A stretch of 64,000 bases of DNA from Vulcanimicrobiota bacterium. GTDB taxonomy: Bacteria; Vulcanimicrobiota; Vulcanimicrobiia; Vulcanimicrobiales; Vulcanimicrobiaceae. Made by a program: the position numbers and the translations under genes. The notes below the pieces were generated by a model. It saw only the letters and a list, made by a program, of their open reading frames with translations, did no database searches and was not told the DNA's origin. Within the stretch, counting starts at the first letter, position 1; every line of letters starts with the position of its first letter. This document shows, piece by piece, positions 30,618 to 61,657 of this stretch. The stretch is from positions 1 to 64,000 of the forward strand of contig DAIDGX010000004.1 of NCBI GenBank assembly GCA_027452165.1. Reading direction: 5' to 3'.

Positions 30618-30658
30618 ACGGAGAAGCCCGGTGCATCGCACCGGGCTTCTCCGTTTTT
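30618..30658 (+). terminator. Rho-independent terminator
   Basis: ACGGAGAAGCCCGGTGC (30618-30634) and GCACCGGGCTTCTCCGT (30638-30654) form a perfect 17-bp stem with a three-base loop, followed by TTTTT up to 30658. It ends the two-gene secreted-protein operon 26 bases after its stop. Confidence 0.9.
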
Positions 30659-55241: not shown

Positions 55242-57407
55242 TCAGCCGCCTGCAGCGCTCTTCTCGCGTTTCGTGACGCGATAGACGCGTCGTACCTTTT
55301 TCAAGTTTTCGAGCTTGGTGAGGAGCTTGTGCAGGTGATCGAGGTCGCGAATCTGTACGGTCAGGCTCGTAACCGCGGTGCCCTCTTTGCGCACGCGCGC
55401 GTTCACCGAACTCACCGAGGTCTTCAACTCCGCAAAGACCGCCATGATATCTTGCAGCAGTTGCGGCCGGTCTTCGGCTTCAACCTCGATATCGACCGCG
55501 TGCGTCATGTCACTGCCGCCGGTCCACTGCGCTTGCAAAATGCGTTCAGGGGTCGCACTCATGTACGCCACGTTCGGGCAATCGGCCCGATGCACGCTTA
55601 CGCCGCGGCCGATCGTGACATAGCCGATGATCGGATCGCCCGGAACGGGCGAACAGCATTTCGAAAGCCGGACGAGTACGTCATCCACACCCGCGATGCG
55701 CACGCCGCTCGCGCGTTTGGTCGTGCGGCGCGTTACCGGCTTGCGCACCTGCGTAAGATCGACGACGTTGTCACCTTTGATCTCGTCGCGAATGCGGTTA
55801 GCGATCGCCTGCGCGGAAGCGTCTCCGAAACCGATCGCCGCGAAGAGATCGGTTGGCGATCCGTAGTTCATACGGTGCGCGATGCGTTCGATCAGTTCCC
55901 CGCGAGCGAGGTCGGGGCGCAGGCGTTCGCGTGCCAGTTCGGCTTCGAGCGCCTCTTGGCCGGCAAGCACGTTCTCCTCGCGCTGTTCTTTGCGGAACCA
56001 CTGCTTGATTTTGTGTTTAGCGCTCGAAGTTTTAACCACCGAGAGCCAATCGAGCGAGGGCCGCCCGCTCGATTTATTGACGAGGATCTCACAGATGTCG
56101 CCATTTTGCAGCGTGTAGTCGAAGGGTACGATGCGTCCGTTCACCTTGCCGCCGACGCAATGGTTCCCAACGTCGGTGTGTACTTGATACGCAAAGTCAA
56201 GCGGCGTTCCGCCCGCGGGCACCGAGAACACGTCGCCGCGTGGCGAGAAGACGAAAACCTGCGTGTCGAAGAGATCGAGCTTCAGGTTCTCCATGAACAT
56301 GCGCGAATCGCGCATGTCCTTCTGCCACTCGAGCAACGCACGAAGCCACGACAGTTTGTTCTCGAACTGATCGGCCTTGCCGCCCTCTTTGTAACGCCAG
56401 TGGGCCGCGATTCCATATTCGCCGGTTCGATGCATCTCCCACGTGCGAATCTGAATTTCGAGCGGTTCTCCCTGCGGCCCCACGACCGTGGTGTGCAGCG
56501 ATTGGTACATGTTCGGTTTGGGCATCGCGATGTAATCTTTGAAACGCCCGGGAAGCGGCGTCCACATCGCGTGCACGGCACCAAGCGCCGCGTAACAATC
56601 TTTCACCGTATCGACGATGATGCGAATCGCGGTGAGGTCGTAAATCGTCGAAAAATCGCGGCCCTTTTTGATCTTCGAGTAGATCGAGTAGAAATGTTTC
56701 GGGCGCCCTTGAATCTCGGCGTTCACCGTCATCGACGCAAACTCGCCACGCAGCTTTTCGATCGCCTCGCGCACGTCGTTCTCGCGTTCGCGCCGCGTCT
56801 TCGCGACGCGTTCGACGATCTCGCGGTAAGCCTCGGGCTCGAGCCACTTGAGGCATTCGTCCTCGATCTCCCACTTGATCTTCCAAATGCCTAGGCGATG
56901 CGCGATCGGCGCGTAGATGTCGAGCGTCTCGCGCGCGATCGAGAGCCGCTTCTGCGCCGGCAGGCTCGCAAGCGTGCGCATGTTGTGCAGCCGGTCGGCT
57001 AGTTTGATGATGATGACGCGGATGTCGCGCGCCATCGCCATGAACATTTTGCGCAGGTTTTCCACCTGCGCATCCTCTTTCGACTGATACGGGATGCGGG
57101 TGAGCTTCGTCACCCCATCGACGAGCCCGGCAATCTCGTCGCCGAACTGCGCCGCAACCTCGTCGCTCGTTATCGACGTATCTTCGACCACGTCGTGCAG
57201 GAGCGCGGCGGCGATCGTGTGGCGGTCCATCTCGAGGTCGGCGAGGATGCCCGCAACGGCGAGCGGATGCTCGATGTACGACTCGCCCGAGGCGCGGCGC
57301 TGGCCATCGTGGGCGCGGTCCGCCACTTCATAGACGCGCCGCAGCCACTCCCCCTCGAGGGAGGCATCGTACCGTTGGACTGCTGCAATCAGCTCCGAAA
57401 TCGTCAT
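55242..57407 (-). CDS. rel: Bifunctional (p)ppGpp synthetase/hydrolase
   Basis: A 721-residue Rel/SpoT protein. HD hydrolase domain with HDVVEDT (71-77), synthetase domain with LTAIRIIVDTVKDCYAALG and YQSLHTTVVGPQGEPLEIQI, TGS domain (VFVFSPRGDVFSVPAGGTPL), and C-terminal ACT domain (LTVQIRDLDHLHKLLTKLEN). It makes and degrades the stringent-response alarmone. I chose ATG 57407, preceding TISELIAAVQRYD; the longer frame to 57518 adds an unlikely leader. No spoT paralogue is in the window. Confidence 0.95.
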   Translation of the reverse strand: MTISELIAAVQRYDASLEGEWLRRVYEVADRAHDGQRRASGESYIEHPLAVAGILADLEMDRHTIAAALLHDVVEDTSITSDEVAAQFGDEIAGLVDGVTKLTRIPYQSKEDAQVENLRKMFMAMARDIRVIIIKLADRLHNMRTLASLPAQKRLSIARETLDIYAPIAHRLGIWKIKWEIEDECLKWLEPEAYREIVERVAKTRRERENDVREAIEKLRGEFASMTVNAEIQGRPKHFYSIYSKIKKGRDFSTIYDLTAIRIIVDTVKDCYAALGAVHAMWTPLPGRFKDYIAMPKPNMYQSLHTTVVGPQGEPLEIQIRTWEMHRTGEYGIAAHWRYKEGGKADQFENKLSWLRALLEWQKDMRDSRMFMENLKLDLFDTQVFVFSPRGDVFSVPAGGTPLDFAYQVHTDVGNHCVGGKVNGRIVPFDYTLQNGDICEILVNKSSGRPSLDWLSVVKTSSAKHKIKQWFRKEQREENVLAGQEALEAELARERLRPDLARGELIERIAHRMNYGSPTDLFAAIGFGDASAQAIANRIRDEIKGDNVVDLTQVRKPVTRRTTKRASGVRIAGVDDVLVRLSKCCSPVPGDPIIGYVTIGRGVSVHRADCPNVAYMSATPERILQAQWTGGSDMTHAVDIEVEAEDRPQLLQDIMAVFAELKTSVSSVNARVRKEGTAVTSLTVQIRDLDHLHKLLTKLENLKKVRRVYRVTKREKSAAGG

Positions 57408-57474
57408 GCCGGGTATCCGTCTATATTCGCATAAACGTCCCGGTCCCGTCCAATGGTTCTGCCGTTCGGCGTTT

Positions 57475-57930
57475 TTACTGCAATCGATCGCGGAACATGA
57501 TGCCGTCGATCTTGCCATCCGGGCCGATCGTCAGCTCTTCGAATACCGTGGCGTTGGAGCAGCGCATGCGGTAGATGTAGCCGGTCACGCCTTTGGGGCC
57601 GCCGTCGATGCCCAGATACCCCAACCATTCGACCGAGGTCAGGGCGCCGAGCGATGCGAGCGCCTTCGAGGTGGCCGCGATCTTCGCGGGGGTGAGCTTT
57701 GCTTGCGTGACGGCAGCGTAGTGCGTCGGATCCACCACGCCCGCTTGCCAGGCAACGAACTCACGTCGCGCCATCAACGTGATCGCGGGATTCTCCGGCG
57801 GCGGGGTGGGCGTGGAAACAGGGGTGGGGGTCGATGCGGCGTGACCGCGCGCATACGCGGCCGCCGGAACGACGAGCAGCGCAGCAGCAACGACGCTCGC
57901 GGCGAGGCTAGTACCGAATGAACGAGACAA
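57475..57930 (-). CDS. Hypothetical secreted protein
   Basis: A 151-residue exported protein with signal peptide (TSLAASVVAAALLVVPAAAY), a Thr/Pro-rich linker (STPTPVSTPTPPPENPA) and a small globular domain (LASLGALTSVEWLGYLGIDG, then GYIYRMRCSNATVFEELT). The start is TTG 57930, which overlaps the apt stop by 23 bases and has a GGA upstream. No family motif is recognised. It is probably co-transcribed with apt. Confidence 0.65.
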   Translation of the reverse strand: MSRSFGTSLAASVVAAALLVVPAAAYARGHAASTPTPVSTPTPPPENPAITLMARREFVAWQAGVVDPTHYAAVTQAKLTPAKIAATSKALASLGALTSVEWLGYLGIDGGPKGVTGYIYRMRCSNATVFEELTIGPDGKIDGIMFRDRLQ

Positions 57931-58420
57931 CGTCGGTTCCGCCGAGCGATGCGCGACCGTTCAGTGCCTCGAGCTCGATCAGGAACGCAAAGGCCTCGAT
58001 TGAAGCGCCGAGCCGTTCGAGCAGGCGACGCGTGGCCGCGGCGGTACCGCCCGTTGCAAGCAGGTCGTCGATCACGACGACGCGATCGCCGCCGCCCAGC
58101 GCATCGGCGTGAATCTCGAGTGAGTTCGTGCCGTATTCCAACGCATACGACTCGGAGAGCTTGCTGTACGGCAGTTTACCCGGCTTGCGCACCGGAATGA
58201 AGCCCGCACCGATCGCGTAGGCAAGCGGCGCGCCCAGCATGTAGCCGCGCGCTTCGATGCCCACCACGTAGTCGATGCCGCGACCCTTGAAACGATCGAC
58301 GAAGAGATCGACCGCGGACCTGAAGCCGTCTTTATCCTTGAGCATCGGCGTGATGTCGCGGAACAGAATCCCCGGAATCGGGAAATCCGGAATGGCGCGA
58401 ATTAAACGTTCGGTATCCAC
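57908..58420 (-). CDS. apt: Adenine phosphoribosyltransferase
   Basis: A 170-residue PRTase. The motif VVVIDDLLATGGTAAATRRL is the PRPP-binding site, and FPIPGILFRDITPMLKD plus EARGYMLGAPLAYAIGAG are diagnostic of Apt. It salvages adenine to AMP. I chose GTG 58420 because it gives the usual N-terminus (DTERLIRAIPDFPIPGI); the longer frame to 58579 runs inside the pheA-like gene. There is a 37-base gap between that gene's stop and this GTG. Confidence 0.92.
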   Translation of the reverse strand: MDTERLIRAIPDFPIPGILFRDITPMLKDKDGFRSAVDLFVDRFKGRGIDYVVGIEARGYMLGAPLAYAIGAGFIPVRKPGKLPYSKLSESYALEYGTNSLEIHADALGGGDRVVVIDDLLATGGTAAATRRLLERLGASIEAFAFLIELEALNGRASLGGTDVVSFIRY

Positions 58421-58457
58421 GGGGAACGAGCTTTCGAGGCGCGCCGGGACGAGCCTT

Positions 58458-58997
58458 TCATCCGCGCGTGCGAGCGACCAGCCAGAACCGCGTATAGTTC
58501 GCGGCCACATCTTGCACCGCACGCGCGAGGACGGCTGCGCCGTACAGCTCCGCAGCCGGAAGCGGCCCGATCGCCGCATGCGTCATCTCGCCGGCCGCCG
58601 CCACACGCCGAACGGCGGCCGCCGTATCGTAATAGGGCTCGGCCCTCACCCCGAGCCGGCCGAGAAAGAGGGAGCACTGCGCGAGCGCAACCGGGTGCGA
58701 AAGCACGCGACGCACATCGCTCACCGCTGCGCCGGGTGCGCCGATCAACGCCTGCTCGATACGGTGCAGGCGCTCGGCAACCGGCGCCAGCCGTGCCCGT
58801 GCCAGCGCCTCGCGCGCCGCCGCGATGACACCTACGACCGAGTTCTCGACGGGCAGCACGGCATAGGGCAGCGCGCCGCGCTCCACCGCGGCGCAGAGCG
58901 CCGCGAAGCTGGGGTAGCCGCGCGTGGCGCTTGCGCCGAGCGCTCGCGCCGCCTCTTGCGAAAAGGCACCCGCCACGCCCTGAAAACCGACGATCAC
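58458..58997 (-). CDS. pheA: Prephenate dehydratase, short form without ACT domain
   Basis: A 179-residue PDT domain. IVGFQGVAGAFSQEAARAL, LPVENSVVGVIAAA, VLSHPVALAQCSLFL and ANYTRFWLVA match the prephenate dehydratase signatures; the conserved Thr in NYTRF is present. The ACT domain that binds phenylalanine is absent, so allosteric inhibition by that route is not expected. It converts prephenate to phenylpyruvate. Start GTG 58997 overlaps the stop of the DAHP synthase/chorismate mutase gene (GTGA), coupling the two. Confidence 0.92.
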   Translation of the reverse strand: MIVGFQGVAGAFSQEAARALGASATRGYPSFAALCAAVERGALPYAVLPVENSVVGVIAAAREALARARLAPVAERLHRIEQALIGAPGAAVSDVRRVLSHPVALAQCSLFLGRLGVRAEPYYDTAAAVRRVAAAGEMTHAAIGPLPAAELYGAAVLARAVQDVAANYTRFWLVARTRG

Positions 58998-60139
58998 GCG
59001 ATCGCCCGCACCAGATCCGGCCGCAGCACCCGCGCACCTTCGAGATAGACGTGTTCGATCTCACCTGACGAGCGTCGCGTGCTCACGTGGGCAAGCACGC
59101 GCACCACGCGCGCGAGCGCCCCCGGCACGTCGATCTCGCAGAAGTGCAGCATCGGCACCTCGGTCCATCCCATCTCGCGCACGGCCTGCGCGGGAAACGC
59201 CGCGTGGAGATCCGGCGTCACGCTAAAGAGGAGCGACACCACCTGATCGCGCCGCAACCCGTTGCGCGCAAGCACCTCACGCAGCAGCCGAGCCGTGCCC
59301 TCGAGAATCGCGCGCGGCTCGTCGCCGTTGACCGTGATCGCGCCACGAACGGCACGCATCCGCGGCATTGTAAGCGCCGCGTCCATACGATCGAGATCGT
59401 CCACGATCGTGGCGAAGTCGCGTAGATCGAGCGCTTGCTCGGCATCGCTGCGCGCCAGTTCCGGTTGCGGATGCACCTCGAGCAGAATCCCGTCGGCACC
59501 GACAGCCTTTGCCGCTCGCGCGAGCGGCCGAATCCACCGGCGGACGCCCACGCCATGACTTGGATCGACGATCACCGGCAACGGTGAACGTTCGCGCAGC
59601 ACCGGCACCGCCGAGAGGTCGAGCGTATTGCGCGTGGCGGATTCAAACGTGCGAATGCCGCGCTCGCATAGGATGACCCGCGGGTTTCCTTCCGCGAGCA
59701 CGTACTCGGCGGCGCACAGCAACTCATCGAGCGTAGCGGCCGGACCGCGTTTGAGCAAGATCGGATTGCGCACGCGTCCTGCGGCGCGTAGCAAGGGAAA
59801 GTTCTGCATGTTACGCGCGCCGATCTGGAGGACGTCGATCGATTGCGCCATGCGCTCGACGTCGTGCGGCGCCATCACTTCGCTCACGGTCGGCAGCCCG
59901 CTCGCGCGCCCGGCTTCGGCGAGCAACTCGACGCCTTCCCAACCAAGCCCTTGGAACGAATGCGGGCTCGTGCGCGGCTTGAACGCACCGCCGCGCAACA
60001 GCGCCGCGCCCCGCTCGCGCACGCCGTGCGCAGCTGCGAGCACCTGTTCGCGGCTCTCCACCGCACAGGGCCCCGCGATGATCGTGAACCCACCATCCCC
60101 GATGCATACCTCGCCGATCTCGATTGCCGTTCGGTCCAT
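58994..60139 (-). CDS. DAHP synthase fused to an AroH-type chorismate mutase
   Basis: A 381-residue fusion. Residues 1-255 are a type I-beta DAHP synthase: IIAGPCAVESREQVLAAA, GGAFKPRTSPHSFQGLGWEG, ILLKRGPAATLDELL and VIVDPSHGVGVRR. Residues 261-381 are an AroH-class chorismate mutase (MRAVRGAITVNGDEPRAILE, SVTPDLHAAFPAQAVREMGW, HFCEIDVPGALARVVRVL, HVYLEGARVLRPDL), with Arg265, Glu335, Arg347 and Tyr365 at the positions of the Bacillus AroH active site. DAHP synthases are usually fused to AroQ-type mutases, so this partner is unusual. It performs the first shikimate step and the chorismate-to-prephenate step. GGAG seven bases before ATG 60139. Confidence 0.93.
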   Translation of the reverse strand: MDRTAIEIGEVCIGDGGFTIIAGPCAVESREQVLAAAHGVRERGAALLRGGAFKPRTSPHSFQGLGWEGVELLAEAGRASGLPTVSEVMAPHDVERMAQSIDVLQIGARNMQNFPLLRAAGRVRNPILLKRGPAATLDELLCAAEYVLAEGNPRVILCERGIRTFESATRNTLDLSAVPVLRERSPLPVIVDPSHGVGVRRWIRPLARAAKAVGADGILLEVHPQPELARSDAEQALDLRDFATIVDDLDRMDAALTMPRMRAVRGAITVNGDEPRAILEGTARLLREVLARNGLRRDQVVSLLFSVTPDLHAAFPAQAVREMGWTEVPMLHFCEIDVPGALARVVRVLAHVSTRRSSGEIEHVYLEGARVLRPDLVRAIA

Positions 60140-60163
60140 CGCTCAACTCCATCTCAAGAATAT

Positions 60164-60201
60164 GCAAACGAGCCCCCGCCTGTCGGCGGGGGCTCGTTTG
60201 C
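60164..60201 (-). terminator. 17-bp leader hairpin upstream of the DAHP synthase fusion (attenuator)
   Basis: On the minus strand GCAAACGAGCCCCCGCC (60201-60185) and GGCGGGGGCTCGTTTGC (60180-60164) pair perfectly around a GACA loop. It lies 24 bases upstream of the fusion start codon. The T content after the core stem (GTTTGCATATTCTT) is modest. With the aromatic leader peptide upstream it reads as a transcription attenuator. Confidence 0.7.
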
Positions 60202-60227
60202 GAAAACTGCGTCGTCTCTCTCGTCTT

Positions 60228-60311
60228 CTACGCGCGCAAACGGCGTCCGGCCGACCCTTCGGGACGGCTAAAGTACGAATACGTAAACGCTGCGGACGTG
60301 AACGCGATCAT
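60228..60311 (-). CDS. Putative Phe/Tyr attenuator leader peptide (27 residues)
   Basis: A 27-residue frame from ATG 60311 to TAG 60230-60228. Five of its first 14 residues are aromatic: Phe4, Phe9, Tyr11, Tyr13 and Phe14 (FTYSYF at 9-14), then a polar tail ending RRLRA. A strong -35/-10 pair lies directly upstream and the terminator hairpin follows 27 bases after the stop. It would let ribosomes measure charged tRNA-Phe/tRNA-Tyr. There is no Shine-Dalgarno sequence; the predicted transcript starts about six bases upstream, so initiation may be nearly leaderless. Confidence 0.65.
   Translation of the reverse strand: MIAFTSAAFTYSYFSRPEGSAGRRLRA
60244..60266 (-). promoter_or_regulatory. Possible pause hairpin at the end of the aromatic leader cluster
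   Basis: CGTCC (60266-60262) pairs with GGACG (60248-60244), and CGA (60261-60259) with TCG (60254-60252), with a three-base bulge. It starts right after the FTYSYF codons, where an attenuation pause structure would be. The alternative GTCGGC (60255-60250) can pair with GCCGAC (60187-60182), overlapping the 5' arm of the terminator, as a weak antiterminator. Both are hypotheses from pairing by eye. Confidence 0.35.
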
Positions 60312-60323
60312 GATGTGCTGGCA

Positions 60324-60353
60324 ATAACACCACACCGGCTAGGTCGCTGTCAA
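60324..60353 (-). promoter_or_regulatory. Promoter of the aromatic leader/DAHP synthase operon
   Basis: On the minus strand TTGACA (60353-60348), 18 bases, TGTTAT (60329-60324). The perfect -35 and a four-of-six -10 make a usable sigma-70 promoter. Transcription would start near 60317, about six bases before the leader ATG. Confidence 0.55.
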
Positions 60354-60451: not shown

Positions 60452-60748
60452 ATGAAACAGCGAGTAATGGCGGCCGCGCTCGCGGTGGCGCTGTCGGTCG
60501 GCATGGCCGCGCCGGCGCTGGCCAACGGCGCTGCAAGCGTCCGCAACATCATCATGCTGGGTACCGCAGCCGGCATCCTGATCACCAACTACAACCACAA
60601 ACTTCGCGAAAAGCGCGCCGAGCACAAAGAGGTGACGCGCCGCCAAGAAGCTTATCGCGACTGGTTCTATCACAAGTACGGCTACTATCCGACCTACGAT
60701 CAGTTCAAGCAGTGGTACCTGCAAACGTACGGCATCAACCCTGAATAG
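60452..60748 (+). CDS. Small secreted protein of unknown function
   Basis: A 98-residue exported protein with signal peptide VMAAALAVALSVGMAAPALA ending near AANG. The mature part starts with a hydrophobic stretch (NIIMLGTAAGILITNY), then is basic and aromatic (RRQEAYRDWFYHKYGYYPTY, YLQTYGINPE). TTAGGAGAGAT precedes ATG 60452. No family is recognised. The downstream TonB-like frame overlaps its last codons. Confidence 0.75.
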   Translation: MKQRVMAAALAVALSVGMAAPALANGAASVRNIIMLGTAAGILITNYNHKLREKRAEHKEVTRRQEAYRDWFYHKYGYYPTYDQFKQWYLQTYGINPE

Positions 60749-61619: not shown

Positions 61620-61657
61620 AACGCGAAGAGCGGGCATCGCTGCCCGCTCTTCGCGTT
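61620..61657. terminator. Perfect 17-bp hairpin between convergent genes
   Basis: AACGCGAAGAGCGGGCA (61620-61636) and TGCCCGCTCTTCGCGTT (61641-61657) pair perfectly around a four-base loop. On the minus strand TTTT follows (61621-61618), favouring termination of the metalloprotease transcript; on the plus strand there is no T run beyond the stem. It probably insulates both transcripts. Confidence 0.7.

Follow-up and report, generated by a model that had tools for sequence, protein, structure and literature searches.

A predicted leader-peptide attenuator with phenylalanine and tyrosine codons upstream of a DAHP synthase operon in Vulcanimicrobiota, and related leaders at other amino acid operons

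Genes and leader features at the locus

The window analyzed here is the whole stretch of 64,000 nucleotides, and the nearest named relatives of its genome are Candidatus Eremiobacterota MAGs; the relatives used for comparison were mostly draft MAGs. On the minus strand, a compact leader region precedes an apparent operon that opens with a DAHP synthase–chorismate mutase fusion (DAHPS-CM) and prephenate dehydratase (PDT). The features are as follows.

60324 to 60353, minus strand: sigma-70-type promoter, TTGACA-N18-TGTTAT (−35 at 60353–60348, −10 at 60329–60324), recognized from sequence
60228 to 60311, minus strand: leader peptide ORF of 27 codons, MIAFTSAAFTYSYFSRPEGSAGRRLRA (ATG at 60311, TAG at 60230–60228)
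60250 to 60268, minus strand: 1:2 (protector or pause) hairpin, GCCG.CCC-GAA-GGG.CGGC (GCCGTCCCGAAGGGTCGGC), from folding; adjoins the last aromatic codon
60234 to 60256, minus strand: region 2, 5′ strand of the predicted antiterminator, GGTCGGCCGGACGCCGTTTGCGC; its 3′ end lies 3 nt short of the leader stop codon
60181 to 60203, minus strand: region 3, 3′ strand of the antiterminator and also the terminator 5′ arm plus loop, TCGCAAACGAGCCCCCGCCGACA, from duplex prediction
60164 to 60201, minus strand: 3:4 terminator hairpin, perfect over 17 bp with loop GACA, 24 bases before the ATG at 60139; weak U-rich tail at 60163–60156
58994 to 60139, minus strand: DAHP synthase (type I)/AroH-type chorismate mutase fusion, 381 aa (Pfam PF00793, 1.5e-73, and PF07736, 4.9e-42)
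58458 to 58997, minus strand: PDT, catalytic domain only, 179 aa (Pfam PF00800, 3.5e-46)
55242 to 58522, minus strand: APRT-annotated phosphoribosyltransferase, a 151-aa unknown protein and a RelA/SpoT homologue (Pfam); gene order identical at L011, in the second species of the genus

An initial annotation, made from the sequence alone, had placed a DAHP synthase–chorismate mutase–prephenate dehydratase operon here, and the Pfam matches agree with it: PF00793 and PF07736 are fused in one protein, followed by PF00800. The promoter, the 27-codon frame with F4, F9, Y11, Y13, and F14, the 17-bp hairpin, and the 24-base gap that it described were all recovered base for base at the positions it gave, and its possible pause hairpin after the aromatic codons corresponds to the 1:2 hairpin. 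The antiterminator, the wider set of leaders on a shared scaffold, and the rearrangement of the operon go beyond that annotation.

The DAHPS-CM start codon has GGAG 7 nt upstream, unlike the leader frame, which is expected to be near-leaderless. The PDT has no ACT domain and was the sole PF00800 protein detected in a whole-genome search. The phosphoribosyltransferase, the 151-aa protein, and the RelA/SpoT homologue come at short distances behind and are probably co-transcribed with DAHPS-CM and PDT. The RelA/SpoT homologue (57518–55242, minus strand) is full length, closes the apparent operon, and holds the same position at L011; were it co-transcribed, aromatic attenuation would also reach (p)ppGpp metabolism. 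On the other side of the leader, a divergent gene (60452–60748, plus strand) encodes a 98-aa protein with a signal-like N-terminus, which is 90% identical over 70 aa at L011 and gave no Pfam match.

Conservation and pairing elements of the leader

In the second species of the window's genus (L011/L004; DAHPS-CM 81% identical), the leader frame reads MTTRSTTFAYAYFSRPSGSAGGRVRAR and the promoter layout is identical. F/Y/W-clustered leaders occur in another 24 genomes of the family. With the window leader alone as the query, blastn also matched other genera (G056, 1.5e-9; G027, 1.6e-7; G026, 3.1e-6), where the matched elements precede PDT-DAHPS genes and lie ahead of the DAHPS match by about 1.05 kb. 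Inspection of upstream regions revealed aromatic leaders in 26 genomes of the family, usually before PDT-DAHPS operons and otherwise before DAHPS-CM operons, with clusters such as AYAYYFSRP, AFAYYYYFCRP, FSFAYWYYYF, SYAYWYFSRP, and SWFYRYFY. Trp is present in many of these leaders and absent from those of the window's genus. The check proposed at the outset, a search for relatives lacking aromatic codons in the frame, left the attenuator reading standing: F/Y(/W) clusters are kept in 26 genomes. The one genus from which the terminator is missing, g35, likewise yielded no comparable leader frame in its inspected upstream regions. At L100, a start-less frame, FAFSYWDGFAHA, looks like a remnant of a leader.

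Five aromatics in 26 residues make the window leader only weakly unusual by itself (binomial about 0.02). Over the 26 conserved leaders, aromatics account for 148 of 599 residues (25%) against a background of 6.4%, a comparison to which no literal p-value is attached because the leader sequences are related. All 26 leaders have a −35 of the TTGACA/TTGACG/TTGACT type, and the best −10 ends 8–12 nt before the start codon in every one (12 nt in the window), so the transcripts, with start sites taken from this spacing, are expected to be near-leaderless.

The 2:3 duplex of the window (60256–60234 with 60203–60181) was predicted at −29.2 kcal/mol, with z = −4.9 relative to dinucleotide shuffles. 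An antiterminator duplex was detected in 26/26 leaders (mean z, −2.2; z below −1 in 24) and, as read from these duplexes, starts about 8–18 nt past the last aromatic codon. This distance is about that of a ribosome's leading edge, which would make Y13 and F14 the best-placed sensors; the effective control codons of the window are likely Y11, Y13, and F14 (60281–60270). The window stop codon lies just beyond region 2, and inspection of the other leader sequences placed theirs within or adjoining region 2. When duplexes were compared across 58 non-redundant leaders, cognate strands paired more strongly than permuted ones (mean, −18.7 versus −16.5 kcal/mol; z = −7.2; 0 of 20,000 permutations), as was also seen within the aromatic set alone; the test is taken as conservative because relatedness is expected to improve the permuted pairs. 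When the complete leader was folded thermodynamically, the terminator won every time; any switching must therefore be kinetic, as is general for attenuators of this kind.

An RNAalifold consensus over 14 leaders recovered the 1:2 helix, with two-sided changes at two of its pairs; the terminator helix has three such pairs, making five over both helices. Covariation was read on this 14-sequence subset, together with the duplex energies, because MAFFT, when given all 24 leaders, placed the 3′ terminator arm of genus g37 wrongly.

The 64-kb window has only three perfect hairpins of at least 17 bp with a 3–8-nt loop; in five versions of it with shuffled bases, not even one of 11 bp occurred. The other two perfect 17-bp hairpins lie at 61620–61657 and 30618–30654. 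GC-rich hairpins of such sequence are common terminators in these genomes, and the hairpin could be a mere constitutive or bidirectional terminator, or an insulator between the divergent genes, with the ORF fortuitous. This explanation has in its favor the modest composition bias of the window leader by itself (p about 0.02) and the many weak matches to the covariance model described below that are nothing more than hairpins, in some cases on both strands; it has to contend with an upstream side on which no same-strand gene ends, the conserved neighbor from 60452 on the plus strand pointing away, and with the retention in 26 genomes of the leader ORF, the control-codon position, the 1:2 helix, and the cognate 2:3 pairing. 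We consider it very improbable.

Beneath the leader, the genes differ between genera. In relatives the operon, as at L107:511-3445, opens with a PDT-(ACT-like)-DAHPS fusion, after which come a stand-alone AroH-type chorismate mutase and then TyrA, a prephenate dehydrogenase; the ACT-like part in the middle of the fusion gives a Pfam ACT match at 5.5e-5, under that family's cut-off. Compared with this layout, the DAHPS-CM fusion followed by an ACT-less PDT indicates that the operon is rearranged beneath a constant leader in the window's genus. Because the window PDT is without the ACT-like domain of its relatives while the leader stayed, attenuation may now bear control once shared with feedback inhibition.

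Leaders at other amino acid operons

A first covariance model, built from 14 aromatic leaders only, was searched over 103 genomes of the order. It also matched loci other than phenylalanine operons, with codon clusters cognate to the gene downstream. Downstream genes were identified by NCBIfam or Pfam for a sample of loci, as listed here with their leader clusters.

Acetolactate synthase (ilvB): VLVLVVLI; HLLVVVLI
2-Isopropylmalate synthase (leuA): LLLLALAL
Ketol-acid reductoisomerase (ilvC): LVVLVSVLLAVLI
Threonine ammonia-lyase (ilvA): ALVIIAGSII
Branched-chain-type aminotransferase: LRLGLVIL
PAPS reductase (cysH): CCCPCRC
Sulfite reductase: LLCCCLL
NMT1-type ABC binding protein: MCMCC
EPSP synthase (aroA): AYFYRWY
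Anthranilate phosphoribosyltransferase (trpD): RWCVNWC
Threonine synthase (thrC): twelve Thr
Homoserine dehydrogenase (hom): TTTITTTTT; MMCSMCRCM
Aspartokinase-like gene: FTLATIT

Counted by eye, about fifty of the roughly sixty loci inspected carry a cognate leader, the remainder being contig ends, unclear cases, and plain terminators; many of the weak matches (below about 30 bits) are ordinary terminators. No leader was found at the model matches L186 and L221, and L174, L180, and L257 lie too close to contig ends for a leader to be judged. A second model, trained on the wider leader set, was searched against 149 genomes of the phylum and, at E up to 1e-4, matched 59: 54 of the 99 in the window's family, four from another family of the order, and one from beyond the order.

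The sensor cannot be named from a terminator/antiterminator pair alone, and T-boxes serve tyrosine genes in Firmicutes; a T-box-like tRNA or metabolite riboswitch, or a protein-binding attenuator, might work the terminator here, the leader ORF being incidental. The codons of the conserved frame, however, follow the product (V/L/I, L, C, T, W, or Y elsewhere), a property readable only by a translating ribosome. An Rfam scan for known leaders, T-boxes, and riboswitches returned no family at gathering score at the element, the only match in the window being a tRNA. Such a sensor is, in our estimate, very improbable.

Leader-peptide attenuators in model bacteria are regarded as separate inventions, one per operon, and Rfam keeps their families separate. 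Our results lean instead, with some margin for doubt, toward one modular attenuator family in this order-level Eremiobacterota lineage, in which a common near-leaderless scaffold serves a dozen or so operons and only the control-codon cassette is exchanged, making attenuation a general control of amino acid biosynthesis. The proposed common scaffold comprises the 1:2 hairpin, a TCGG-containing region 2, and a CCCYCGCCGA terminator, and the cassettes would be F/Y/W, W, Y, V/L/I, L, T, C, M/C, and possibly P. The likeness between operons may reflect common descent or convergence forced by the conserved terminator; since a model trained on one operon recognizes the leaders of others, attenuator evolution by copying or by convergence becomes directly testable. 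The codon clusters also annotate the genes behind them, each pointing to the amino acid that its gene serves.

Several further leaders were noted. Between trpEG and a second DAHPS in the window's genome, G000 (C3, about 138,500–138,610; L147 reverse strand) lies a Trp leader, FAFSWWW (MTTFAFSWWWHQLSALSAGEACAPWSSSR), with a T7 terminator. It is conserved in G002 and is a candidate isozyme-specific attenuator for the second DAHPS; at the third DAHPS gene of the same genome (G000:C26), no leader was found. A weak scaffold match (E 9.5e-4) at G000:C23:37721-37819 (L228) has a proline-containing leader, MTIRFANPCPPQPHQEMPVR, before proC, and would be a proline attenuator, as a weak candidate.

Pure-Tyr leaders on the same scaffold (SYYYG, AYYYYG, TYAYGYYYYGY) precede a 248-aa protein, represented by G001:C33:177241-177984 (L196:329-1072, minus strand; leader MFARLAAATSYYYGRFDRSRLR) and found also at L201 and L262–L271, which bears a weak likeness to Haem_oxygenas_2 iron-containing redox enzymes. 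The protein occurs in 22 of 99 family genomes. A prephenate dehydrogenase above cut-off is missing in 18 of these 22 compared with 24 of the 77 without the protein (Fisher 4e-5, with genomes counted as independent). The Tyr clusters point to the gene of this iron-redox-like protein as a candidate for tyrosine supply in genomes that mostly have no TyrA. In G000, a whole-genome search detected no prephenate dehydrogenase, biopterin-type aromatic hydroxylase, or Tyr-leader protein, and the leader keeps its Tyr codons; the gap may reflect tyrosine auxotrophy, a hole in the MAG, or a novel route.

Proposed switch and known systems

Because the cognate codons match the downstream genes and cognate antiterminator pairs beat swapped ones, we favor ribosome-mediated attenuation. 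The leader-peptide attenuator envisaged in the initial annotation has since found counterparts in 26 family genomes that combine an aromatic leader, a 1:2 hairpin, an antiterminator, and a terminator. With high confidence for a reading based on sequence, 60353–60164 (minus strand) would be a classical ribosome-mediated transcription attenuator of an aromatic (phenylalanine) operon, one copy of the scaffold shared in its lineage, and the operon is very probably switched on when phenylalanine and tyrosine run short.

Judging from promoter spacing, transcription would start about 0–6 nt before the leader ATG, and the peptide would be translated from an almost leaderless mRNA. With charged tRNA-Phe and tRNA-Tyr plentiful, the ribosome would pass Y11-Y13-F14 and reach the stop codon beside region 2, where it would bar region 2 from region 3, so that the 3:4 hairpin would end transcription near 60160. 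If either tRNA is uncharged, the ribosome is predicted to stall at Y13/F14, or perhaps at Y11, and to cover the 1:2 hairpin's 5′ arm; region 2 (60256–60234) would then pair with region 3 (60203–60181), the terminator would fail to form, and transcription would continue into DAHPS-CM, PDT, and probably also APRT and Rel.

How efficiently the window copy terminates is less certain. A clear U-tract follows the hairpin in most relatives; the tract is weak in the window, G001, and G026/G027, for all of which termination efficiency is uncertain on that account. The window terminator has no clean U-run, its tail being GUUUGCAUAUUCUUG, and that of L004, GUCUGCAUUUCUAG, is also poor. Together with the absence of the whole element from the related genus g35, these tails would fit real attenuation weakened in the window copy, which, with its U-tract decayed and the TyrA-containing tail of the operon lost, would mainly set basal expression. 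Both species of the genus nevertheless keep the 17-bp stem, the YxYF codons, and the 2:3 pairing, and at L011 the terminator hairpin has undergone a compensatory A-U to G-C change; we hold such weakening to be unlikely, if less so than the two alternatives above.

The attenuator proposed here resembles enterobacterial pheL-pheA/pheST (Rfam Phe_leader) in its control-codon leader, its 1:2, 2:3, and 3:4 helices, and its control of PDT. The pheL leader is Phe-only and has a ribosome-binding site; the window leader differs in being mixed Tyr/Phe (with Trp in relatives) and in its predicted near-leaderless start, and it has no Rfam sequence match. The G096 hom leader, MTTTITTTTT, is a run of Thr/Ile codons closely resembling that of E. 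coli thrL. Unlike thrL, it sits on an RNA scaffold common to the aromatic, branched-chain, and cysteine leaders of its lineage.

According to a 2010 survey, Proteobacteria and Actinobacteria were the only groups with demonstrated leader-peptide systems until the Firmicutes cases that the survey itself added (PMC2965389). In the literature searched, whose coverage excludes most subscription papers, we found no description of attenuators in Eremiobacterota or of a near-leaderless, shared-scaffold form of attenuation. The trpL (rnTrpL) transcript of Sinorhizobium meliloti is leaderless, its 5′ end coinciding with the leader ORF's ATG, and is subject to transcription attenuation (PMC7298713); that system is Trp-specific and belongs to a single operon, whereas the window scaffold occurs at many. 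In Corynebacterium glutamicum, a Phe-Tyr-Phe leader peptide is reported to precede a DAHP synthase operon (aroR-aroF), and transcription is reported to rise on Phe limitation (Neshat et al. 2014, summarized in PMC11802643; PMC4046766). Compared by description only, aroR shares with the window a Phe/Tyr leader before a DAHP synthase operon; it belongs to another phylum, is not described as sharing a scaffold with other leaders, and has genes behind it that differ from the DAHPS-CM fusion, PDT, APRT, and Rel genes of the window.

Since mixed Phe/Tyr control of a DAHP synthase (aroR-aroF) and a leaderless leader (trpL) are already known, the window element, taken by itself, adds one somewhat unusual member to the attenuators on record. 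The earlier description of a variant unlike the textbook pheL refers to the mixed Phe/Tyr content and the near-leaderless start, and its novelty is tempered by these two precedents. What is new is the scaffold that the leaders share, in a phylum that has received little study.
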